Below the pieces are notes generated by a model. It worked only from the letters and a program-made list of their open reading frames with translations. It did no database searches and had not been told where the DNA came from. Shown piece after piece: positions 5,601 through 15,199 of a stretch of 35,722 nt of DNA. Positions within the stretch are counted from its first letter, which is position 1. Every line of letters starts with the position of its first letter. Location: assembly GCA_947454955.1 (NCBI GenBank), contig CANGLW010000021.1, positions 1 through 35,722 on the forward strand. Reading direction: 5' to 3'. The translations under genes and the position numbers were made by a program. The stretch comes from Comamonadaceae bacterium (lineage in GTDB: Bacteria; Pseudomonadota; Gammaproteobacteria; Burkholderiales; Burkholderiaceae_C).

Positions 5601-6011
5601 TTACTGTGCTGTGTGTACCCAATTTTCCAGTTCCAGCGCAGGCACCCGTTTGAACTCCCCCATGTTGTTCGTCACCAGCACCAGGCCTTCGCTGCGAGCG
5701 TGCGCTGCAATGTGCATGTCGTTCACACCAATAGGCTGACCGAGTTTTTCCAAGGCGGCGCGAATGGCTCCGTAATGCTGCGCGGCCTTGGGGCCATAGG
5801 GCAGAACTTCAAGGCGACTACAAAAGTCCTCGATAGCTGCCAGGTTCTCGCTGACTCGGTTGCTTTTCTCCGCACCGTGCAAGAGCTCGGCGAGGGTAAT
5901 GGAGGAAATCGCCATGCGACTAGCGTTGGCGTTGAAAATGGAAAGCACCTCGACAGGTCGCCGCTTCAGCACGTAGATGACGATGTTGGTGTCTAGCAGG
6001 TAACGCAGCAT
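5601..6011 (-). CDS. vapC: VapC toxin, PIN-domain ribonuclease
   Basis: A 136-residue PIN-domain protein of the VapC family, which are Mg-dependent endoribonucleases acting on tRNA or rRNA. The acidic pocket is visible: Asp7 in LLDTN, Glu42 in LAELLHG and Asp98 in VNDMHIAA. In the fourth motif, VTNN, the usual Asp is Asn116, a substitution common in the VapC group with VTNNxxEF. The ATG at 6011 matches the family start and shares one base with the vapB stop (TGATG); the longer upstream reading is vapB sequence in another frame. It is transcribed opposite to the first TA pair. Confidence 0.9.
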   Translation of the reverse strand: MLRYLLDTNIVIYVLKRRPVEVLSIFNANASRMAISSITLAELLHGAEKSNRVSENLAAIEDFCSRLEVLPYGPKAAQHYGAIRAALEKLGQPIGVNDMHIAAHARSEGLVLVTNNMGEFKRVPALELENWVHTAQ

Positions 6012-6244
6012 CAGAGCGCTTCCCGTTCCGGCTGTTGCTGGGTAGCGCGCTCGGGCAGGAAGTCGTCGCTCACTGTGGGGCCACCCAGAAAGAAGCTGTC
6101 CCAAGTTTGGCCTAGGGGGGAAATGATGCGCTCTTTACCTTTAACGCGTATCTCTACCTTGTGGACACCCTCAGGTAGACGCACGTCCAATGGCAGACGA
6201 ACGGCCTGGGTACGGTTATTGACGAAAACAGTGCCGATGGACAT
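6011..6244 (-). CDS. vapB: VapB antitoxin, AbrB-type
   Basis: A 77-residue antitoxin with the swapped-hairpin AbrB N-terminus (TVFVNNRTQAVRLPLDVRLP), which binds operator DNA. A C-terminal tail with WDSFFLGG and DDFLPER would wrap the VapC active site. I chose ATG 6244 because it gives the conserved short N-terminus, and the GGGGG/AAGG-rich stretch just upstream on the minus strand could serve as ribosome site. A longer in-frame ATG at 6274 would lie inside the -10 region of its own promoter. It is coupled to vapC by TGATG. Confidence 0.88.
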   Translation of the reverse strand: MSIGTVFVNNRTQAVRLPLDVRLPEGVHKVEIRVKGKERIISPLGQTWDSFFLGGPTVSDDFLPERATQQQPEREAL

Positions 6245-6263
6245 GATGAACCCCCAAGGAAAA

Positions 6264-6302
6264 GTATATAGCAATTGTATACAGCATATCCGAAGCAGTC
6301 AA
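6264..6302 (-). promoter_or_regulatory. vapBC promoter with operator
   Basis: On the minus strand TTGACT (6297-6302) is followed after exactly 17 bases by TACAAT (6274-6279). An imperfect inverted repeat GTATA...TATAC (6264-6268 and 6278-6282) straddles the -10 box and is a candidate VapBC autoregulatory site. Confidence 0.65.
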
Positions 6303-6551: not shown

Positions 6552-6833
6552 ATGAAAACTGCATCAATTCCACCGATTCGCATCGAGTCTACTTTTCGCG
6601 AAGAAATAGAAATGGCGCTTGGCGATGGTGAAACCATGGCGTCGTTGGTAGAAAGTGCTGTACGTACCGAGGTAACTCGTCGTCGTGATCAAGCTGAATT
6701 CGTTCGGCGCGGTCTAGCGGCAATTGCTCGCTCAGAAGCGGATGGTGACTGGATTCCTGCTGAGGTGGTGATAGCCAAGCTAGAAGCGAAAGTAGCTGCC
6801 GCAAGAGCGCGCCAAAAGAACCATCAGAAGTGA
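6552..6833 (+). CDS. Putative type II antitoxin (YlcI/YnfO-like)
   Basis: A 93-residue protein. Its N-terminal half (IRIESTFREEIEMALGDGETMASLVESAVRTE) looks like a ribbon-helix-helix DNA-binding segment, and the C-terminal half is helical and charged. It resembles small antitoxins found ahead of ParE toxins, including YlcI/YnfO-like proteins. No Shine-Dalgarno is visible and the predicted transcription start coincides with the ATG. Its stop overlaps the toxin start by four bases (GTGA). Assignment as antitoxin rests mainly on this coupling and the downstream toxin. Confidence 0.7.
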   Translation: MKTASIPPIRIESTFREEIEMALGDGETMASLVESAVRTEVTRRRDQAEFVRRGLAAIARSEADGDWIPAEVVIAKLEAKVAAARARQKNHQK

Positions 6834-7147
6834 AGTATCAGATCGTTTTCAGCCGTGAGGCCGAGGAGGATCTCGAAAGATTGTTTGACTTCGCATTTGA
6901 GCGTGAGTTGAACAGTCCGACTGGTGATCTTGACAATCCAACAAAAGCGATCGAGGCGATACGACAAGCCTGCCAATTCTTAGCTATCAGCCCATTTAGC
7001 TGTCGCAAAGCAGATACAGGTCCATTCGCCCGAGAGTTGATTGTTCCTTTTGGAGCAACCGGGTATGTCATTTTCTTTGAAATCAAGACTTCAAATCGAG
7101 TCCATATCGGTGCTGTAAGGCACCAAAGAGAAAGTGATTACCACTAA
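6830..7147 (+). CDS. ParE/RelE-family toxin
   Basis: A 105-residue toxin starting at GTG 6830. It shows the ParE/RelE plan: YQIVFSREAEEDLERLFDF at the N-terminus, a middle helix region (AIEAIRQACQFLAISPF), then a FARELIVPFGATGYVIFFEI strand pair and the C-terminal VHIGAVRHQRESDY, which matches the IxxVRHxREDxY ending of ParE-like toxins. ParE proteins poison DNA gyrase, but whether this one does so cannot be told from sequence. It overlaps the antitoxin by 4 bases. Confidence 0.85.
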   Translation: MKYQIVFSREAEEDLERLFDFAFERELNSPTGDLDNPTKAIEAIRQACQFLAISPFSCRKADTGPFARELIVPFGATGYVIFFEIKTSNRVHIGAVRHQRESDYH

Positions 7148-7810: not shown

Positions 7811-7896
7811 CTCGTCGATGGTTTGATCGAAGATTTACCTTAAGTGATCTATCGATCCGCAAACTGACTTACATTTCCCACGTTGAGAAATTTAAG

Positions 7897-7922
7897 AGCT
7901 TCAGAAAGCAAAAAGCCCGAAC
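7897..7922. repeat. 26-bp direct repeat, copy 2
   Basis: Identical to 5478-5503. In this copy the sequence continues into the second arm of a terminator hairpin, so this is the complete context. The pair encloses 5504-7896. Confidence 0.75.
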
Positions 7923-7933
7923 TAAGTCGGGCT
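7910..7933 (-). terminator. Original tRNA-His terminator, now displaced
   Basis: On the minus strand a 7-bp stem (AGCCCGA at 7914-7920 with TCGGGCT at 7927-7933, 6-base loop) is followed by TTTTT. It lies 16 bases beyond the left copy of the tRNA 3' half. Before insertion of the element this would have been the terminator directly downstream of tRNA-His. Confidence 0.7.
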
Positions 7934-7949
7934 AAGTGCTTGATTTATA

Positions 7950-7997
7950 TGGGGTGGCTGATGGGGCTCGAACCCACGACAACAGGAATCACAATCC
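7950..7997. repeat. attL: 48-bp repeat, tRNA-His 3' half fragment
   Basis: Identical to 15123-15170. It corresponds to tRNA-His from the anticodon stem through the 3' CCA, in minus orientation. The sequence beyond 7997 does not continue into the tRNA 5' half, so this copy is a dead fragment marking the left junction. Confidence 0.93.
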
Positions 7998-8070
7998 CAT
8001 TAAATTATGATTTGCCATTGTTGATTGATGTTGTTACACTCTATATAAATCAACAGGTTACGCAATTTAT

Positions 8071-8088
8071 ACTGTTCATATAAACAGT
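8071..8088. promoter_or_regulatory. Inverted repeat in the left arm
   Basis: ACTGTT (8071-8076) and AACAGT (8083-8088) form a perfect 6-bp inverted repeat with a 6-base A/T spacer, between attL and the integrase gene. GTTGATTGA also occurs twice nearby (8020-8028 and 8095-8103). These could be regulator, excisionase or host-factor sites; the role is unknown. Confidence 0.35.
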
Positions 8089-8127
8089 GTCTCCGTTGAT
8101 TGAAATTCATCAAAATACCCTAAATTT

Positions 8128-8160
8128 GGCTACATGGTGGCTACATGGTGGCTACATGGG
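8128..8160 (+). repeat. Three tandem 11-bp integrase arm-type repeats
   Basis: GGCTACATGGT occurs at 8128-8138 and 8139-8149, with GGCTACATGGG at 8150-8160. The same 11-mer recurs inside the right end (15047-15068). Duplication near both attachment sites and proximity to the integrase gene fit arm-type binding sites for the integrase N-terminal domain. Confidence 0.75.
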
Positions 8161-8186
8161 ATTAGGAAGCAAGGAGCGAGAGGCAA

Positions 8187-9641
8187 ATGGCACGACCACC
8201 CAAAGACCTAAAAATTGACCTGGCCCAGCCCCACAACCTGACTGCCGGGCTGATTGAGCGCCTTACCTGCCCCGAAGGTAAGCAACAGGCTTTCATGCGC
8301 GACAGCGATACCAAAGGTTTGCGGGTACGCGTCACATCCAACGGTGCCAAGTCCTATGTATTTGAGAAAAAGCTATCTCGCCAGACAGTACGCCGCACCA
8401 TCGGGGATACAAGTAACTGGAGCATTGAAGCCGCCAGAGTGGAGGCCCGCCGCCTGTCTAGGATGCTTGATGAAGGTGTCGACCCACGACAAGTAGAGCG
8501 CGATTTACAGGCCGCCACCGCACAGAGAAAGGCCGATGCGATTGCCAAGATTGAGTCCGACAAGCTGGCCGCTATCACTGTCAAAGAGGTCTGGCTTAGG
8601 TATGTAGAGGAACGCCGCCCGTATTGGGGCGAAGCCCATTACCGCGACCACATAACCAAAATCCAACCAGGTGGAGAGAAGCCCAAAAAACGCGGCAGAC
8701 CCGGTGAGACAGTCGCCATGCCATTAGCGCCCTTAATGCCCCTGGCACTTAAAGGCCTCGACCAAGCCACGATTGAAGCATGGGCAGCCAAAGAAGGGCA
8801 GACTCGCCCAACCTCTGCCCGGCTTTCATGGCGACTCTTATCGGTGTTTCTGAATTGGTGCAGCGAACAGCCTGAATATGCAGCTTTACTGCCCGCCAAG
8901 AACCCAGCTAAGACCAAGAAAGCCCGCGAAGCCTTCGGCAAGGCCAGTGCCAAGTCGGATGCGTTGCAGCGAGAGCAACTAGCCGCGTGGTTTGCAGCCG
9001 TTCAAAAGATTCAGAACCCTGTTATTTCGGCATGCCTACAAGTCCTGTTACTCACTGGCGCTCGTTTGAATGAGGTCCTAACCATGCGCTGGGAGGACAT
9101 AAACACCCAATGGAAAGGCATCACCATCAATGACAAGGTAGAGGAAGCAAGAGAAATTCCTTTGACCCCTTACGTAGAAAGCTTAATTACCGCCCTGCCC
9201 CGTCGAAATCAATATGTATTTGCAAGCGCCAGAACATTGGACATGAGCGAACGAAACAAGTCCCGCCGCGAACGCAAGAGCGCCACCAGGGGGAAACCCA
9301 CACCGACAGGAGCCATCTTGGAGACTAGCGCAACTGGCTACATATCCGAACCGAACACCCCGCACACCCGTGCTTGCAGAACAGTTGGGATTGAGGGTTT
9401 GACATTGCACGGTTTGCGCCGCTCGTTCAAGAGCCTGTCTGAGTGGCTGGAATTACCTGTTGGCGCAATCGCACAAATCATGGGACATAAACCGAGCGCA
9501 ACCGCGGAGAAACATTACACGGTGCGCCCACTGGACTTACTACGAATTCACCATGAGAGGTTTGAAGCTTGGATTCTGGAACAGGCTCAAGTGCCGTTTG
9601 TAGCCAATGCGGAGCCGGGTAAGTTGCATGCAGTCAAATAA
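8187..9641 (+). CDS. int: Tyrosine recombinase integrase
   Basis: A 484-residue site-specific recombinase expected to insert and excise the element at tRNA-His. The N-terminal domain (about 1-100, with MRDSDTKGLRVRVT and SYVFEKK) resembles the DUF4102-type arm-binding domain of P4-like integrases. The catalytic residues are Arg293 (TGARLNE), His408/Arg411 (LHGLRRS), His434 (MGHK) and nucleophile Tyr444 (EKHYTV). It is longer than the usual 400-440 aa: there is a basic insertion around 355-385 (ERNKSRRERKS) between the catalytic Arg and the HxLRR box, and another Pro/Lys-rich stretch near 160-180. An AAGGAG lies about 10 bases upstream of the ATG. Confidence 0.95.
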   Translation: MARPPKDLKIDLAQPHNLTAGLIERLTCPEGKQQAFMRDSDTKGLRVRVTSNGAKSYVFEKKLSRQTVRRTIGDTSNWSIEAARVEARRLSRMLDEGVDPRQVERDLQAATAQRKADAIAKIESDKLAAITVKEVWLRYVEERRPYWGEAHYRDHITKIQPGGEKPKKRGRPGETVAMPLAPLMPLALKGLDQATIEAWAAKEGQTRPTSARLSWRLLSVFLNWCSEQPEYAALLPAKNPAKTKKAREAFGKASAKSDALQREQLAAWFAAVQKIQNPVISACLQVLLLTGARLNEVLTMRWEDINTQWKGITINDKVEEAREIPLTPYVESLITALPRRNQYVFASARTLDMSERNKSRRERKSATRGKPTPTGAILETSATGYISEPNTPHTRACRTVGIEGLTLHGLRRSFKSLSEWLELPVGAIAQIMGHKPSATAEKHYTVRPLDLLRIHHERFEAWILEQAQVPFVANAEPGKLHAVK

Positions 9642-9775
9642 AGCAGGCCTGATGCGAAACCTGCAATCTGACAAAACCGCCACCTCTAGCAAAAAGCTAT
9701 TGAGAAAAACTTTCAATCACGCTTAGGCTATGACTAATTCAAAATTGTCCCCGTTAACCACCAACGGAGACATTT

Positions 9776-10009
9776 ATGCCAAGCGAACACATTGCTGTCC
9801 AGATTGCCGACACCTACCGCACACACCTACAGACTGCGTTAAACATGGCAGAGAGCCTAATTCAAGCCAATGACTGTGTAGCCCTGTCCCAAGCAAAAGA
9901 AACGCTCAAGATGGTCTCTGAAGGCCTTGATTCCCTGTTCGACGATTTAGCCGCTGAATTCCCACTGATGGATGCCGACATGCTTCGTGAGTTATCCGAA
10001 GCCTCATAA
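9776..10009 (+). CDS. Small hypothetical protein
   Basis: A 77-residue, acidic, strongly helical protein (TALNMAESLIQAND...LKMVSEGLDSLFDDLAAEFPLMDADML). GGAGA sits about 6 bases before the ATG. I do not recognise a family. It occupies the place between integrase and replication genes where many satellites keep excisionase or small regulators, but its acidity argues against direct DNA binding; it could act on a protein partner. The 130 bases between integrase and this gene hold only a weak hairpin (9643-9664). Confidence 0.6.
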   Translation: MPSEHIAVQIADTYRTHLQTALNMAESLIQANDCVALSQAKETLKMVSEGLDSLFDDLAAEFPLMDADMLRELSEAS

Positions 10010-10022
10010 GTCGATTGCTTTT

Positions 10023-10109
10023 ACCCCGGCTAGGCCCGCGAACCGAAAAGCGGGAGACTTCACCCGCCTGCTGGGGTTTCGATTTGAAGTAACACCGGGA
10101 AGGGGTGTT
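10023..10109 (+). promoter_or_regulatory. Structured RNA leader with alternative hairpins
   Basis: An outer 8-bp stem pairs ACCCCGGC (10023-10030) with GCTGGGGT (10070-10077), including one G-U pair. Inside it, GCGGG (10050-10054) can pair either with CCCGC at 10035-10039 or with CCCGC at 10063-10067; the two are mutually exclusive. A further hairpin, AACACC (10091-10096) with GGTGTT (10104-10109), holds part of the GGGAAGGGG ribosome site of the next gene in its loop and stem. This looks like an attenuator, translation switch or small immunity RNA rather than chance. Confidence 0.5.
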
Positions 10110-10111
10110 TT

Positions 10112-10855
10112 ATGCAAGACCAAACAGGGATTAAGAAGCCTGAGACTCAGCAACAAAGTGAACGCGGGTTTATCGCGTATTTCGGTGAGTATGTGAACAA
10201 CACCAACCCTATCGATTGGAATTACTGGCTCCAACAAATGCCCAGACTTAGCGCCGCCGAAGCCGCCAGGCTCATGTGCGCATTAGACCCAGATGAATTT
10301 GAAAACCTCAAAGCAGACCCCAACCCCAAAGGCAACAGCACAGAAGGCCCACGGCAAAAAGCAAGGAACATTGAGCGTATAGCCGTGAGCGAGGACATGA
10401 AGAGCGCCACACCACGCGAGTGGGCCGAATGGGCGATTGAAAGAAGCATCCATGTGCACGATGTTTTTACCCTTGCGCTTGGCTCTGTTGACGAGGGAAA
10501 ACCTCAAGCAAACCAACCATCACAGAACAGTCAACCAGACCCATTGCCCACCCAAGATATTGCGGTGTTGTTTGCTGGCGTTAGATTCACGCGAGAGCGT
10601 TGGATTAAAAACATTGGACATGCGAAGTGGCTGGCCCCGGCCAATCGCACCAAAGGCCAGCAAGGCGGTGCGCCTGCTACGTGGTGCCCGCTGGAGCTCG
10701 CCCAGCTTATATGTGACAAAGAGAAGGACACCAGAGCCAAGCAAAAGACTCTGAAAAGTCTAAACAGTCGATTCCGTAAGAACCCCGCGCTCAAACCGTG
10801 GGTGGACGCGTGGAATGATTACTACGAACAGTTCAAAGATACTGACGAAGCCTAA
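10112..10855 (+). CDS. Hypothetical element protein, 247 aa
   Basis: The N-terminal part has WNYWLQQMPRLSAAEAARLMCALDPDEF, a W..L...P.LsaaEAA.L..aLDP pattern that I have seen in proteins of unknown function from proteobacterial islands. The middle is Pro/Gln-rich and likely a linker. The C-terminal part is basic and aromatic (SRFRKNPALKPWVDAWNDYYEQF) and could bind nucleic acid. The ribosome site GGGAAGGGG is embedded in a hairpin, so translation is probably regulated. Function unknown; expressed ahead of the replication block, it may be an early regulator or replication accessory. Confidence 0.65.
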   Translation: MQDQTGIKKPETQQQSERGFIAYFGEYVNNTNPIDWNYWLQQMPRLSAAEAARLMCALDPDEFENLKADPNPKGNSTEGPRQKARNIERIAVSEDMKSATPREWAEWAIERSIHVHDVFTLALGSVDEGKPQANQPSQNSQPDPLPTQDIAVLFAGVRFTRERWIKNIGHAKWLAPANRTKGQQGGAPATWCPLELAQLICDKEKDTRAKQKTLKSLNSRFRKNPALKPWVDAWNDYYEQFKDTDEA

Positions 10856-10927
10856 CCAATACCCTGGGATTAACCCCGTGGCTATGGCTGCAAATCAGCG
10901 TAAGTGATTGATTTAAAAGGATTATCA

Positions 10928-10941
10928 AATACCGGGGTATT
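10928..10941. promoter_or_regulatory. 14-bp palindrome upstream of the HTH gene
   Basis: AATACC GG GGTATT is an inverted repeat with 6-bp arms in the 154-base gap (10856-11009) before the HTH gene. It is a candidate operator for the element's regulator. I see no confident promoter hexamers. Confidence 0.4.
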
Positions 10942-11009
10942 AGCGCCAAAAGTGCGGAAATTTTCAATGCGACTGTCATCAACAACGCCATACGGCAAAG
11001 GACAGAAAC

Positions 11010-11246
11010 ATGGAAACACCGCAGACTATCAATGCACGGACGCAAGCCGCGCAACCTTACACACCTCTGGCGCAAGAGACACGCGCCAACCTCCCAACCA
11101 GTGAGGCGGCCTATCACCTGAATCGACGCGAGCAGACCTTGAGGGGCTGGGCTTGCTTGGAAAATGGCCCACTGCGCCCCATGCGTATCAATGGCCGTTT
11201 AGCCTGGCCTGTCTCAGAGCTTCGCCGTTTGCTGGGGGTGGCGTGA
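11010..11246 (+). CDS. AlpA/MerR-like helix-turn-helix protein
   Basis: A 78-residue protein. Its second half reads as a short winged HTH of the AlpA/excisionase type: LPTSEAAYHLNRREQTLRGW, then RINGRLAWPVSELRRLLGV, i.e. a helix-turn-helix, a strand with Gly-Arg and a final helix entering the DNA minor groove. Such proteins in satellites activate integrase or replication genes or act as excisionase. GGACAG is upstream of the ATG. The stop shares a base with the next micro-ORF (TGATG). Confidence 0.7.
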   Translation: METPQTINARTQAAQPYTPLAQETRANLPTSEAAYHLNRREQTLRGWACLENGPLRPMRINGRLAWPVSELRRLLGVA

Positions 11247-11323
11247 TGGTGGCCGCTCTCAAAGAAATCGCACTGCGAATCTGGTGCGCCACTCCAAGCC
11301 GCTGGTGGAGGGCCGCCAAATGA
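11246..11323 (+). CDS. Putative 25-aa micro-protein
   Basis: ATG 11246 opens a 25-codon frame ending at TGA 11321-11323. Its start overlaps the HTH gene stop (TGATG) and its stop overlaps the next start (ATGA at 11320), so it fills the gap exactly. The peptide is cationic and Trp-rich (MVAALKEIALRIW...SRWWRAAK), suggesting an amphipathic helix. It may be a real small protein or just a coupling device that carries ribosomes to 11320. No homologue is known to me. Confidence 0.4.
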   Translation: MVAALKEIALRIWCATPSRWWRAAK

Positions 11324-11670
11324 ATAAAGCCCCGACACACGCCAATGCATCCGGGGCTTACGGTGAACAACTTTCGTTTCTACCGACACCCGCATTATCG
11401 GTCAAATGGCCCAAAGAAACAACCGTGGCCGGGCTGGTATTGAGTGAGCTTTTAGAGGGCTCATTTCTGGACCATCAAGACCTCATTGATGGTGTTTCTT
11501 CGTGGCGCTTGGCCGCGTACATCAACCAACTTCGAAACGATGGCTGGCCCGTTGAAACGATAGAGCGACCTGCACCCTCTGAGGGCTGCCCTAGCCGCTG
11601 TATCGCTCTATATGCGCTGCCGCCCGCCGTGATTGCACAGGCCTTAGAGATGCGAGGTGCCCATGCTTAA
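11320..11670 (+). CDS. Hypothetical protein with winged-helix-like segment
   Basis: A 116-residue protein. GGAGG lies 8 bases before ATG 11320 and supports it over the in-frame ATG at 11284. The central part (VAGLVLSELLEGSFLDHQDLIDGVSSWRLAAYINQLRNDGWPVET) resembles the helix-turn-helix domains of phage proteins that sit beside replication genes, where an SWRLAAYIxxLRxxGWPI pattern is frequent. The C-terminal part contains a strand segment (RCIALYALP). Likely a DNA-binding regulator or replication accessory. It overlaps the primase/helicase gene by 8 bases. Confidence 0.6.
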   Translation: MNKAPTHANASGAYGEQLSFLPTPALSVKWPKETTVAGLVLSELLEGSFLDHQDLIDGVSSWRLAAYINQLRNDGWPVETIERPAPSEGCPSRCIALYALPPAVIAQALEMRGAHA

Positions 11671-13654
11671 CGGTCATGACACCAACCGCGCTCGTGATGC
11701 GCTTTACTCAATCCCCGCTGACCTCGACCGCTCTGAGTGGGTCAGTGTCGGCATGGCCGCCCATGCTGCTGGGCTGGACTTTGATGACTTCAATGACTGG
11801 TCGGCCCAAGGCGTTACCTACAACGAGCAGGCCTGTCGTTCTACCTGGCGAAGCTTCAAAGACGGCAAAGGCATCGGGGCTGGCACGCTATACGCCAAAG
11901 CACGCCAGTATGGGAATGGGCAAACCAGACGACCACATCCCAGCCCCAGGACTATCACCAGACCACTAGAAGCACCTATCAAGCCTCGCGCTGGCATGGG
12001 AGCCACTGAAATATGGGACCGCTGCGAAGCCGCGACTCGCGAACACTCTTACGTTTTGAAAAAACAGGCTTTCGGGGTTGCACTCGATAACCTTCGTGTG
12101 GTCCCAAGTGGTGACAGCCTCACAATTGCAGGTGAGCGTATGGCTGGGTCCCTTGTGGTGCCAGTCCAGCGACCTGATGGCACGCTATCGAGCCTGCAAT
12201 TCATCACGCCACCTGAGACTGCCGCACGCCTCAAAGCGCAAGGCAAAGCTGACAAACTGAACCTGCCTTCGCATCCCGTCGATGGCTGGTTTGTTGTCGG
12301 TGAGCTCGTGCCTGGTGGTGTTACGTACATAGTCGAAGGCATCGGCCAAGGGTGGGCCTGCTGGACCGCGACCGGGCAGACCGCGATTGTCTGTTTTGGC
12401 GCTGGAAACATGGGCAGAGTCGCCTCAGCCCTGCGAGAAAGGGACGCAAGCGCCCAACTCGTGCTGGTGCCTGATGTTGGCAAAGAAAAGCAGGCCGCTC
12501 AAATTGCCGCGGAAGTATCGGGCATGGTTGCCGCAATGCCTGATGGCTGGGAAAAGAACAGCGATGTTCACGACCTGGCCCAACGCGATGGCATGGAGGC
12601 GCTGGCGATGCTGCTGGATAACGCGACAGCACCGACCAAGGCCGAGCCCCGTTACAAGTTGCTCAATGCTGCCGACCTGCGTGACATGCCGCCAATGGCA
12701 TGGCGCATCAAAAACGTTTTGCCAACCTCGGGGCTGGCAGCTGTGTATGGCCCAAGCGCAAGCGGCAAAAGCTTTCTGGGTTTCGACATGGCCGCACACA
12801 TTGCAATGGGTCACACGTGGTTTGGATGCCGCGTAGAGCCTGTTCCAGTGGTGTACGCCGCCCTTGAGGGTGAGGCTGGTTTCAAGCTTCGCGCACAAGC
12901 GTGGGAGTCGCATCGTGGGCATGCTCTACCCAATGACTTGCATCTGATGCTGCAACCGTTCCAGCTAACGGAGGCTGTTGATGTGCAAGACCTGGCCGCA
13001 GTCGTTCCGTCTGGTGGCGTGGTGTTTATCGACACATTGAACCGTGCCGCACCCACCGCAGATGAGAACAGTAGCAAAGACATGGGTGAGATATTGCAAG
13101 CCGCCAAGCGCCTGCAAAGCCTCACCAATGGCCTGGTGGTACTCGTTCACCATACAGGCAAAGACGCGAGTAAAGGCCTACGCGGGCACTCCAGCCTGTT
13201 CGCTGCAATGGACGCGGCTATAGAGGTTTCTCGCGATGGTGACCGCAGACAGTGGCGACTAGCCAAAGCAAAAGACGGTGCGGATGGTGAGGCCCATGCC
13301 TTTTACCTACAGATTGAGGCGCTGGGGACTGATGCTTATGGCGACCCCATCACATCATGCACCGTGCGTGTCGATGGCAGTGCTGAGGATGTAAAGCGCG
13401 TGAAACTGCCCCAAGGTGGAAATCAACGCCTGGTCTATGAAGGCATCCGCGGCATGTTCAAAGATGGCGTGACCGGAAAGGCTGGAGCGCCACCACTTCG
13501 CCCCTGCATTGAGCTCGAAGCCGCTGTAACCGCTGGAGCCCTGAGCCTGACCTGCGAGACCCACCGCCGCGCGACTCGTGCCAGAGAGGCCATCACGGGG
13601 CTGGTTGCGCGTGGTGTTCTCGGATTACACGAAGGGTGGCTATGGACTGCTTAA
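11663..13654 (+). CDS. P4-alpha-like primase/helicase with RepA-type ATPase
   Basis: A 663-residue replication protein. The N-terminus (about 7-75, ALYSIPADLDRSEWVSVGMA) matches a PriCT-type domain. Around 205-290 is a Toprim-like segment related to P4-type primases, with YIVEGIGQGWA keeping the catalytic Glu and CFGAGNM following. Where a DxD-type acidic motif is expected there is VPDVGKEK, so the metal site may be degenerate. A RecA/RepA-like ATPase follows, with Walker A GPSASGKS (about 363-370), Walker B VVFIDT (about 453-458) and VLVHHTGKD. The C-terminus looks like a winged helix. I chose ATG 11663 (GAGG 5 bases upstream) over GTG 11657. It probably initiates replication of the excised element. 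Confidence 0.85.
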   Translation: MLNGHDTNRARDALYSIPADLDRSEWVSVGMAAHAAGLDFDDFNDWSAQGVTYNEQACRSTWRSFKDGKGIGAGTLYAKARQYGNGQTRRPHPSPRTITRPLEAPIKPRAGMGATEIWDRCEAATREHSYVLKKQAFGVALDNLRVVPSGDSLTIAGERMAGSLVVPVQRPDGTLSSLQFITPPETAARLKAQGKADKLNLPSHPVDGWFVVGELVPGGVTYIVEGIGQGWACWTATGQTAIVCFGAGNMGRVASALRERDASAQLVLVPDVGKEKQAAQIAAEVSGMVAAMPDGWEKNSDVHDLAQRDGMEALAMLLDNATAPTKAEPRYKLLNAADLRDMPPMAWRIKNVLPTSGLAAVYGPSASGKSFLGFDMAAHIAMGHTWFGCRVEPVPVVYAALEGEAGFKLRAQAWESHRGHALPNDLHLMLQPFQLTEAVDVQDLAAVVPSGGVVFIDTLNRAAPTADENSSKDMGEILQAAKRLQSLTNGLVVLVHHTGKDASKGLRGHSSLFAAMDAAIEVSRDGDRRQWRLAKAKDGADGEAHAFYLQIEALGTDAYGDPITSCTVRVDGSAEDVKRVKLPQGGNQRLVYEGIRGMFKDGVTGKAGAPPLRPCIELEAAVTAGALSLTCETHRRATRAREAITGLVARGVLGLHEGWLWTA

Positions 13655-13753
13655 CCGAAATTAACCGAAATCACCCTATTCGGTCTTTATCGGTAACCGA
13701 AATTAACCGCCACCCCTATAGGGGGGGTAGGTTTTCGGTGGTTTTTTCGGTGG
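13651..13753. repeat. Iteron-like cluster, candidate replication origin
   Basis: The core ACCGAA or its complement recurs through about 100 bases. Tandem TTAACCGAAA lies at 13651-13660 and 13661-13670, TTCGGT at 13679-13684, and TCGGT A ACCGA (inverted) at 13690-13700. TTTTCGGTGG occurs at 13732-13741 and 13744-13753. A 12-bp palindrome CCCCTATAGGGG lies at 13713-13724. The cluster starts at the stop codon of the primase/helicase, a typical place for an origin recognised by that protein. A regulatory operator array is the alternative. Confidence 0.55.
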
Positions 13754-13759
13754 TGCTCC

Positions 13760-14155
13760 ATGACTGATTTATTCGGACTGGAACACCAGGTAAAGCGTAC
13801 CAATAACCGCCCAGAGTCTGCCGCACTCATTGAAGTGCTGAAGGCTTTGAAGTCTCACCCATCGGTGGTGTGGTGCGAACGAATGAATAGCGGTGCTGCC
13901 AAAGTGGGTAACCGATTTATCCGCTTTGGATTTACTGGCTGCCCTGATGTGTTGGGGCAGTTGGACGATGGCCGCGTGCTGGCCGTGGAGGTTAAAAGCC
14001 CCACCGGAAAGCTAAGGCCAGAGCAATCAATTTTTCTGGACCGCATCAAAGCCGCTGGAGGCGTGGCCTTTGTCGCCAGAGATTGCCGAGACGTATTCAG
14101 AGAACTATCCAGCCACTGCAAACCTATTGCATTTTCAACAAAGGACGAACGATGA
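13760..14155 (+). CDS. VRR-NUC domain nuclease
   Basis: A 131-residue stand-alone VRR-NUC (PD-(D/E)xK) endonuclease. The core reads FTGCPDVLGQL (catalytic Asp), then LAVEVKSPTGKLRPEQ (Glu-x-Lys pair and following Gln), then GGVAFVARDCRDVFREL. The preceding GAAKVGNRFIRFG segment is the usual entry. Stand-alone VRR-NUC proteins occur in phages and islands and can cleave branched DNA; the substrate here is unknown. It follows the iteron-like repeats and overlaps the next gene by ATGA, so it begins a three-gene tail operon. Confidence 0.85.
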   Translation: MTDLFGLEHQVKRTNNRPESAALIEVLKALKSHPSVVWCERMNSGAAKVGNRFIRFGFTGCPDVLGQLDDGRVLAVEVKSPTGKLRPEQSIFLDRIKAAGGVAFVARDCRDVFRELSSHCKPIAFSTKDER

Positions 14156-14571
14156 CACCCAAACGACCCAAAGGATGGCAACCGGGCCAATCCGGTAACC
14201 CCAAAGGTAAACCCCCTGGCTCCGGAGAGCTCCAACGGCTGAGGGCAGCGATTGCACAGCACGTGCCGACCATCCTGGAGCAATTGATAGCCTCCGCCCA
14301 GGGTGGCGACATACAGGCCGCACGGCTGATACTGGAGCGCGTTCTGCCGCCCGTGAAGGCCACAGAACAGCCCGTAGAGATTCAATTGCCCGATGAAGGT
14401 ACGTTGACTGCAAAGGCTGAGGCCCTGCTGTCTGCCGCTGCTGATGGGGTCCTATCGCCAGGACAAGCCTCGCAACTTATCGCCGCTCTTGGCGCTGTTG
14501 CCAAAATTAATGAGATTGACGAACTGACCGCCCGAATTACCAAACTGGAAGCCCTCCATGTCAACACTTGA
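14152..14571 (+). CDS. DUF5681 domain protein
   Basis: A 139-residue protein. Its N-terminus KGWQPGQSGNPKGKPPGSG is the DUF5681 signature (xxxGQSGNPxGRPxG). It is followed by a helical domain with HVPTILEQLIASAQGGDIQAARLILERVLPP. I chose ATG 14152, which forms ATGA with the VRR-NUC stop; the longer frame from 14083 is unsupported. DUF5681 proteins are often found next to phage terminase genes and have been suspected of DNA-packaging or DNA-binding roles. With no large terminase here, an effect on a helper phage's packaging is conceivable but unproven. Confidence 0.8.
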   Translation: MTPKRPKGWQPGQSGNPKGKPPGSGELQRLRAAIAQHVPTILEQLIASAQGGDIQAARLILERVLPPVKATEQPVEIQLPDEGTLTAKAEALLSAAADGVLSPGQASQLIAALGAVAKINEIDELTARITKLEALHVNT

Positions 14572-14815
14572 AAAACGCATCGACAACCTAGAGCAAGCCA
14601 CCAACACCCATACAAACACCGTTGTCTTTGTCAGGTTTGACGAGCCAGGTGAGCCAGACAGAGAGCTTACAGGCCTAGAGGGCTCCTACAGCAAAGCCAC
14701 CTACCAGAAATGGGCACGCATCGATGGGGAGACTGAGCAGGCCTTCAAAGCACGCGCGTGCAGGGAAGTTAAGCGCAACCCAAATGGTGTAGCCCTGCTG
14801 TTCCAAAAAGACTGA
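14558..14815 (+). CDS. Small hypothetical protein, 85 aa
   Basis: The N-terminus (STLEKRIDNLEQATN) predicts a short coiled coil, followed by a strand segment VVFVRFDEPGEPDREL and a charged helical end. It overlaps the DUF5681 gene by 14 bases. No family is recognised. The gene is the last of the element and is followed directly by a strong terminator, so it closes the tail operon. Confidence 0.6.
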   Translation: MSTLEKRIDNLEQATNTHTNTVVFVRFDEPGEPDRELTGLEGSYSKATYQKWARIDGETEQAFKARACREVKRNPNGVALLFQKD

Positions 14816-14837
14816 CAATCAATAAAGGACCTACAAG

Positions 14838-14858
14838 CCCGCCATGTGCGGGTTTTTT
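14838..14858 (+). terminator. Terminator of the element's tail operon
   Basis: CCCGC (14838-14842) pairs with GCGGG (14848-14852) around a 5-base loop and is followed by six T residues (14853-14858). It lies 22 bases after the last stop. From here to the right attachment site (14859-15122) there is no gene; the stretch holds the right-arm repeats and the minus-strand terminator. Confidence 0.85.
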
Positions 14859-15033
14859 ACTTTGGAGCCACCTGAAGTCACCCATGCCGTTAAAGAACGC
14901 ATGCGCTGCGCTTGAGACTCGATGCAGAGCTAGTTACCAAAAGTTTAAAAATGGTTACACAAATTTCAGGCCCAGCCAGAACACCCAGACCAGGTGTCAT
15001 TCAATGCGTGGGGCTGGTCGAACATTGTGCAAA

Positions 15034-15068
15034 ACCATGTACCGCTGGCTACATGGTGGCTACATGAA
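15034..15068. repeat. Right-arm integrase repeats
   Basis: GGCTACATGGT (15047-15057) and GGCTACATGAA (15058-15068) repeat the 11-mer found three times at 8128-8160. ACCATGTA (15034-15041) is an inverted partial copy. They lie 55-90 bases from the right attachment repeat. Confidence 0.75.
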
Positions 15069-15075
15069 GGCAAAG

Positions 15076-15112
15076 AAAAAGGGCTTGCTACTATTTTCAT
15101 AGCGGCAAACCC
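15076..15112 (-). terminator. Replacement tRNA-His terminator supplied by the element
   Basis: On the minus strand GGGTTTGC (from 15112) pairs with GCAAGCCC (to 15081), with one G-U pair. An inner CTAT-GAAA-ATAG hairpin sits in the loop, and TTTTT follows at 15080-15076. It lies 10 bases past the tRNA CCA and inside the element. Confidence 0.75.
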
Positions 15113-15122
15113 TTGATTTAGT

Positions 15123-15170
15123 TGGGGTGGCTGATGGGGCTCGAACCCACGACAACAGGAATCACAATCC
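15123..15170. repeat. attR: 48-bp repeat within intact tRNA-His
   Basis: This is the functional copy of the 3' half of tRNA-His, identical to 7950-7997. It spans from the anticodon stem to the encoded CCA. It is continuous with the tRNA 5' half, so integration leaves the tRNA gene whole. Confidence 0.93.
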
Positions 15171-15199
15171 TGGACTCTACCAACTGAGCTACAGCCACC
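15123..15199 (-). tRNA. tRNA-His (GTG anticodon), CCA encoded
   Basis: The minus strand folds as a standard cloverleaf: acceptor GTGGCTG with CAGCCAC, D-arm with AGCTCAGTTGGTAGAG, anticodon loop ATTGTGATT, and a T-arm with GGGTTCGAGCCC. The extra 5' G opposite C73, the histidine identity element, is encoded (15199 with 15126). The 3' CCA is encoded at 15125-15123. The element's 48-bp repeat covers its 3' half. Confidence 0.97.

Follow-up and report, generated by a model that had tools for sequence, protein, structure and literature searches.

The first 35,722 bp of contig CANGLW010000021.1 (Comamonadaceae bacterium, assembly GCA_947454955.1), hereafter called the window, contain a 7,173-bp unit bounded by exact 48-bp repeats of the tRNA-His 3' half, and this locus raises the question of what kind of mobile element the unit represents. 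We conclude that it is probably a minimal phage satellite, a variant of the kind formed by phage-inducible chromosomal islands (PICI) and phage-inducible chromosomal minimalist islands (PICMI) and not of the P4 kind, with packaging and a helper phage as the inferred parts of this reading. A preliminary description of the same DNA had suggested an undescribed family of betaproteobacterial satellites or minimal islands. A coherent compact family, mostly from Burkholderiales, was indeed found, whereas its novelty is not proven, because the literature search, which found no description of such a Burkholderiales family, reached few subscription papers. New here are the terminase context of DUF5681, the co-variation of initiator and iterons, and the co-variation between the int-alpA RNA loop and a hairpin.

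Integration site and related elements

As stated in the preliminary description, the two 48-bp repeats enclosing the 7.2-kb unit are perfect; together with their flank they form a 59-bp repeat of 97% identity (7939-7997 and 15112-15170). The arm repeats that it reported are also present, since copies of GGCTACAT start at 8128, 8139 and 8150 on the left and at 15047 and 15058 on the right, with a further copy within the integrase gene int, at 9336. The G+C content is 54% in the element versus 59% in the remainder of the window. An unoccupied site was recognized in the closest genome of the same genus (G012, locus L196), in which the counterpart of positions 7851-7997 (147 bp including the core, 89% identity) continues into a complete tRNA-His and its neighbouring gene. 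Since the left flank and the core abut the complete tRNA-His and the neighbour gene in this relative, an uninserted form of the site exists. This flank evidence comes from one relative, the tRNA part alone being matched at the remaining same-genus loci, and the query of tRNA-His with its neighbouring gene found matches in 26 of 26 genomes of the genus (own genome counted, some matches partial). In another genome of the genus, G021 (contig C298, 10526-10574), a 49-bp 3' fragment of tRNA-His lies separate from the full tRNA-His gene, a hint that some other island has used this site. A plasmid search with the whole-element DNA returned 40 records, and the best 20 comprised pieces of tRNA size and a single match of 190 bp, from Burkholderia stagnalis.

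When the primase was used as a query, matches were obtained in 26 of 399 genomes of a family-level sample (E 1e-40; own genome counted, some partial), in 9 of 399 of an order-level sample (1e-100; own counted) and, among 369 genomes of a class-level sample (1e-60), in the own genome alone. In a scan of species genomes, 69 loci were found. The majority of their record titles are Burkholderiales taxa or 'beta proteobacterium', with one Crenobacter; some are no finer than Proteobacteria, Gammaproteobacteria or uncultured bacterium, and one Saccharibacteria-titled and one Mycobacteriaceae-titled locus may be mis-binned. A tRNA repeat (at least 30 of 34 bases; 34/34 in 19 cases) encloses the primase gene in 22 of the 69 loci, delimiting elements of 6,648-12,426 bp with a median of 7,841.5 bp. 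Two of these bounded elements, L273 and L278, belong to Comamonas badia DSM 17552, and the TerS (small terminase)-type gene of L273 is of the c10 type. Profiles of our own, each made from few sequences, detected the primase gene prim and alpA in all 22, int in 21, the small winged-helix gene o128 in 15, the VRR-NUC gene in 12, a small-terminase (TerS)-type gene in eight and the gene o247, for the 247-aa protein, in seven. The attachment genes of these bounded loci are tRNA-Met, -Thr, -His, -Lys, -Phe and -Asn; syntenic copies, on whose existence the preliminary description had made its proposal depend, are present at all these sites in other genera.

This recurrence of a compact gene order at different tRNA genes of several genera largely refutes the view that the unit is a decayed prophage, in which the integrase and early genes were kept. 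The main open reading frames (ORFs) are open, and the origin and the RNA described below show compensatory changes, which also argues against decay. In favour of a prophage origin, 1010 phage records contain partial homologues of the primase, all with less than 80% coverage, and others are found in viral contigs, where the single primase protein gave partial matches at 14 loci with 28-52% identity; furthermore, DUF5681 is common in viral contigs. We consider this view scarcely credible.

Co-variation at the putative origin and in the leader RNA

The iteron-like cluster of the preliminary description was borne out, with eight core matches in 109 bp (iterons at 13652-13709), whereas 2000 mononucleotide shuffles gave 0.06 on average and never more than 2, the motif having been picked after the sequence was seen. 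When the post-primase regions of the window and 25 relatives were aligned, iterons, a C-(AT)-G palindrome and an inverted iteron were found directly after the stop codon. By its sequence, this origin-like region 3' of the primase gene would be the replication origin. The inverted half-sites co-vary: 91.3% of the cells are paired and 15 cells changed on both sides, these two values and the covariation score each being reached in 0 of 500 shuffles; two further measures were not unusual (198/500 and 151/500).

According to the base preceding CCGAAA, the 26 loci fall into 11 of A-type, 10 of G-type and five of C-type. The within-group minus between-group identity of the primase is 0.12 in the best window, residues 601-640, while the other parts of the protein average 0.015 (sd 0.013), and no label shuffle of 1000 reached the 601-640 value; with another label, N-terminal windows gave small differences too, of 0.03-0.05. 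Left-arm labels gave 2 of 1000 shuffles and right-arm labels 57 of 1000. More specifically, residue 640 follows the iteron base in all 26 loci, being threonine in 11/11 A-type, serine in 10/10 G-type and glutamate in 5/5 C-type loci. Base and residue also agree in 15 of 15 scorable held-out loci, which are of A-type (L235, L256, L067), G-type (L084) and C-type (L249, L251, L252, L253, L289, L295, L296, L298, L299, L300, L301). They remain from 21 loci after removal of the duplicates L068 and L294 and with L074, L248, L257 and L297, whose iteron core differs, left unscored; L235 and L256 are near-duplicates of L233 from the first set, and L084, with tied G and T letters, was scored on the palindrome-adjacent iteron, as for other G-type loci. 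The rest of the 69 loci, with a primase C-terminus of another type or missing, fall outside this comparison. Because the sequences are related, the agreements are not independent events. In L257 and L297, another recognition helix (KRGTY) goes with another iteron core, GCCACAAA. Co-variation thus demonstrates the pairing of initiator and iterons.

In the predicted structure of the primase C-terminus (predicted local distance difference test, pLDDT, 78), a helix at 635-651 is followed by a beta wing. Comparison of this model with the PDB gave no match at E 0.001, with many winged-helix proteins among the matches listed, and from the model we infer that residue 640 would lie at the start of the recognition helix. 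Across the wider family, exact 7-mer iterons are enriched in 30 of 66 loci at p<0.02. The C-(AT)-G palindrome is found in 29 of 66, its stricter form in 20 of 66 versus 23 of 6165 background windows, in which the origins are included. Distant relatives have different iterons, or iterons within the gene.

A second co-variation concerns the int-alpA RNA (RF02996), which was absent from the preliminary description and scores above the gathering threshold in the window. The RNA was detected in 17 of the 21 bounded elements tested and was negative in L234, L251, L261 and L270; the scan omitted L233, and eight of the 21 elements were read under another locus identifier on the same contig. Both stretches complementary to its apical loop lie downstream, the second forming the loop of a hairpin that covers the Shine-Dalgarno sequence of the next gene. 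Over 20 distinct rows, matched partners are complementary at 5.25 and 5.85 bases for the two stretches versus 4.18 and 4.71 for shuffled partners (0/5000 each), the match at the first stretch being limited to 3 bases in five of 22 loci. Within the loop-hairpin contact, five of six pairs change on both sides (1/500 shuffles), paired cells make up 93.7% and the covariation score reaches 0.336 (0/500 each), the count of further pair types being not unusual (118/500). In the window copy, the first stretch pairs better (six pairs versus four for the second), and the leader folds no better than its shuffles (z -0.91). In the available part of PMC4825925, the P4 CI RNA is described as an antisense RNA whose pairing with two sites terminates transcription. 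The int-alpA RNA recalls this system and, heading the replication operon, may control it in an analogous manner.

DUF5681 and the search for a helper

The genome context of DUF5681 marks it as a small-terminase-type gene. The DUF5681 protein of another island (L110) gave 189 matches in viral contigs, of which 80 were kept, and the gene following DUF5681 has a match to phrog_2 (large terminase) in 40 of the 44 loci scanned, a chosen subset of the 80. A downstream ORF of at least 150 aa is present in 55 of the 59 loci examined out of these 80 and lacking in four (L124, L125, L160, L180). Eleven loci with short, cut or near-duplicate neighbours were left unscanned (L116, L119, L130, L133, L136, L138, L140, L141, L157, L158, L167); the omission of L116 and L119 raises the large-terminase share, because their neighbours are short and different-looking. 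For L120, L126, L128 and L161, the first downstream ORF was used instead of the longest. Of 12 further DUF5681 genes inspected by eye in bacterial genomes, several lie downstream of integrase-like ORFs in short islands; in L107, L108, L109, L111 and L113 the intervening genes differ between these islands. In the available part of PMC8954984, a DUF5681 protein is among the virion proteins of a Salmonella phage; this finding is neutral on a terminase role.

Two tail proteins from relatives have matches in small-terminase families. One tail protein of L063 matches phrog_83 (small terminase, 1e-8; Pfam Terminase_4 at 0.013, below cut-off) and one of L071 matches phrog_641 (small terminase, 7e-10). 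TerS-type calls in other members come from our own profiles, according to which L230 and L250 each have both a c10-type and a P27-type TerS, one protein of each having been checked in PHROGs. The structural model of the window DUF5681 protein (pLDDT 77, predicted TM-score 0.41) was compared with a library of viral protein structures, where the best matches include DUF5681 or unnamed proteins.

Several results weigh against the reading as a satellite. No TerS-type gene was recognized in 14 of the 22 bounded relatives, and ten tail proteins from such relatives matched no TerS family, giving one weak superinfection-exclusion match (0.0049). The window DUF5681 protein had no match at E 1e-5 in 50,697 phage records, and its model had none in the PDB at E 0.001, with no small terminase among the matches listed. 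The host genome has no phrog_2 large terminase, so no resident helper was seen, and viral contigs searched with the primase alignment contained no relative. A large-terminase profile, which matched none of the 69 loci, recognized 35 of 36 DUF5681 viral contigs outside its training set, some of them near-duplicates of training contigs, but one of 14 other viral contigs. Since it misses 13 of these 14 controls, its silence on the 69 loci is weak evidence of absence, and for this reason our confidence in the satellite reading was lowered, by a very small step.

An alternative explanation is a minimal replicating island without packaging of its own, in which DUF5681 would do something else, for instance bind DNA in replication, and which, after excision and replication, would spread when transduced by chance, taken up by natural transformation or carried along in conjugation. 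The missing virome copy and helper, the recognition of a TerS-type gene in only eight of 22 bounded relatives and the lack of a small-terminase fold match all speak for it. The position of DUF5681 directly before the large terminase in phages, the two TerS types of L230 and L250, and the lack of any relaxase family match in the window are harder to accommodate, and such an island seems to us unlikely.

Gene content and position among known satellites

Ten ORFs of the window were compared with Pfam and PHROGs, and RNAs were annotated with Rfam (Table 1).

Table 1. Features of the element and its attachment site (window coordinates)
Feature	Position	Strand	Evidence or remark
attL core, 48-bp copy of tRNA-His 3' half	7950..7997		exact repeat
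Three tandem arm-type repeats TGGCTACATGG	8127..8160		
Tyrosine integrase	8187..9641	+	PF00589 Phage_integrase, PF13356 Arm-DNA-bind_3, phrog_1
77-aa ORF, function unassigned	9776..10009	+	no family above cut-off
int-alpA RNA (RF02996)	10023..10090	+	49.4 bits, gathering 35.8
Two sites complementary to RNA apical loop (10057-10062): TGAAGT at 10085-10090; hairpin over next gene's Shine-Dalgarno at 10093-10107	10085..10107	+	covariation
247-aa ORF, first gene of the operon	10112..10855	+	homologues in some relatives; own profile, 7/22 bounded relatives
AlpA-like helix-turn-helix (HTH) regulator	11010..11246	+	HTH_17 E 0.026, below cut-off; homologue in 22/22 bounded relatives
Small winged-helix protein o128 (ORF as listed begins 11284)	11320..11670	+	HTH_39 E 5e-4, just below cut-off; 15/22 relatives
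Primase/helicase, 665 aa, C-terminal winged helix, putative initiator	11657..13654	+	PriCT_2, AAA_25; Toprim_3 below cut-off
Putative replication origin: ACCGAAA iterons flanking a CCCCTATAGGGG palindrome	13652..13759		
VRR-NUC nuclease	13760..14155	+	PF08774 2e-8
DUF5681 protein, small-terminase-type by genome context	14152..14571	+	PF18932
85-aa ORF	14558..14815	+	no family above cut-off
72-aa ORF at right end, doubtful gene	14884..15102	+	no family match
Two arm-type repeats, other attP arm	15046..15067		
attR core, 3' half of intact tRNA-His	15123..15170		exact repeat
tRNA-His (GTG), attachment gene, complete	15123..15198	-	ARAGORN, Rfam

The integrase, VRR-NUC and DUF5681 named in the preliminary description were confirmed by Pfam, and its HTH regulator is supported by conservation in the family, the Pfam match being weak. 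Its P4-alpha-like primase/helicase had to be revised, as PriCT_2, Toprim_3 and AAA_25 were found, with no P4-alpha model among the matches. The claim that structural, large terminase and conjugation genes are missing holds insofar as no structural, lysis or relaxase family was matched by the ten ORFs, but DUF5681 is itself terminase-type by context. With NCBIfam, the integrase matched recombinase models far below cut-off and the nine other ORFs had no match; the primase sequence had none in the PDB. In the Toprim region of the primase (residues 227-277), the glutamate is kept and D-x-G takes the place of the usual D-x-D, a state conserved in the window and eight relatives. A promoter scan found two sites versus 4.1 expected, and no promoter was called; a terminator-like scan found 22 versus 9.6 expected. 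To the left of the element (5601-6274 and 6552-7147) lie, by eye, two toxin-antitoxin-like pairs, PIN-type and ParDE-like.

The 115 non-core ORFs of the relatives (at least 85 aa) showed no structural family among the best 25 of 67 PHROGs and the best 25 of 33 Pfam families, those listed including toxin-antitoxin proteins, HTH regulators, a K+ transporter, a sensor kinase and IS21-type transposition proteins. PADLOC gave 20 families, mostly weak and with one or two members each, and one strong DrmD match (9e-38). The sensor kinase lies in an element of Noviherbaspirillum humi (L247, 13566-17802), and its two adjoining ORFs are, judged by size and place, probably the source of the response-regulator and K+ transporter matches. 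In the 13.8-kb locus L080 (G407:C33), the primase, VRR-NUC and DUF5681 genes adjoin, by eye, a type I restriction-modification-like set. Locus L074 (5479-14265, reversed orientation) is a tRNA-Cys island between two complete tRNA-Cys copies forming an 84-bp repeat, with a 942-aa ORF that by eye resembles a serine-protease autotransporter.

In the available part of PMC6092414, PICI are defined by an integrase, a replication module and a master regulator in conserved order, a typical size of 12-15 kb, attachment sites never occupied by prophages, and induction and packaging by a helper phage; their origin lies immediately 3' of the initiator, with two iteron sets around an AT-rich core. The element has the same module order, alpA being assigned by family conservation with its Pfam match below cut-off. 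Integrase, AlpA-type regulator, fused primase-initiator, sometimes terS, and the lack of structural genes are common to both, and the putative origin agrees in layout, with 3' iterons on both sides of a core that is here the C-(AT)-G palindrome. This shared organization would suit an ordinary Gram-negative PICI that is merely small. However, the element has 7.2 kb, and its family a median of 7.8 kb, versus 12-15 kb; it lies in a tRNA gene, as do its relatives, the int-alpA RNA leader and the 247-aa gene separate alpA from int, and no interference or capsid gene of known type was found in it. We therefore regard an ordinary PICI as quite improbable.

The PICMI of Vibrionaceae are described in the available part of PMC10803314 as elements of ~6-7 kb with a very small gene set and an int-alpA-prim core, for which a model of multimer packaging without capsid remodelling was proposed. 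They integrate at fis, a gene overlapping int is common, and PICMI115 is without a terS homologue (PMC10803314). The core and the size are similar in the present element, which differs in its location at tRNA-His, with relatives at other tRNAs, and in having a TerS-type gene and VRR-NUC. The same source lists, for complete genomes, 135 PICMI-like elements. As 67 of these come from Vibrionaceae, the others may include some relatives of the family studied here.

P4-like satellites integrate in tRNA genes, and their capsid-hijack genes are psu, sid and delta. Membership in this group was rejected, as no Psu or other P4 capsid-hijack family was among the Pfam and PHROGs matches of the ten window ORFs. 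The element is similar to these satellites in its tRNA-gene integration and, by analogy, its antisense RNA control. It also has its own replication gene, as described for P4-like satellites in the available part of PMC8628076. However, the primase domains are unlike, and both loop-complementary sites lie downstream, whereas P4 has one upstream and one downstream. The layout was initially thought to parallel P4, but the gene order is nearer to PICI and PICMI, with a fused primase-initiator, an iteron region and a TerS-type gene. Tentatively, the relatives could constitute a separate satellite family that combines three traits, an antisense RNA switch as in P4, an initiator-origin pair as in PICI and a small-terminase gene for hijacking, with private specificities of the RNA loop and of the initiator-iteron pair.

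As a minimal phage satellite, the element could act as follows. The integrase recombines the 48-bp tRNA-His core, with the tRNA gene restored, as the anatomy and the unoccupied site of the relative show. In the resident state, the int-alpA leader RNA may repress the replication operon through pairing of its loop with the ribosome-binding-site hairpin, which is suggested by the co-variation and the analogy with P4 CI RNA. An incoming helper phage would lift this repression, and AlpA and the small winged-helix protein would turn the operon on. The C-terminal winged helix of the primase/helicase would bind the iterons behind its own gene, and replication could begin. From its gene context, the DUF5681 small-terminase-type protein may recruit the helper large terminase and direct satellite DNA into helper heads. 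Since the element has 7.2 kb and no capsid-size gene was seen, its transfer may take place in multimeric form, a mode reported for PICMI in the available part of PMC10803314.

If this is true, DUF5681 would gain a likely function, the int-alpA RNA would gain a mechanism open to testing, and minimal phage satellites would be extended to a large group of environmental bacteria. In a separate family of the kind tentatively outlined above, immunity and replication groups would be readable from sequence, threonine, serine or glutamate at residue 640 corresponding to A, G or C iterons. This would be a natural correspondence of one residue to one base between a replication initiator and its origin, by which the number of satellites able to share a cell would become readable from the genome sequence.

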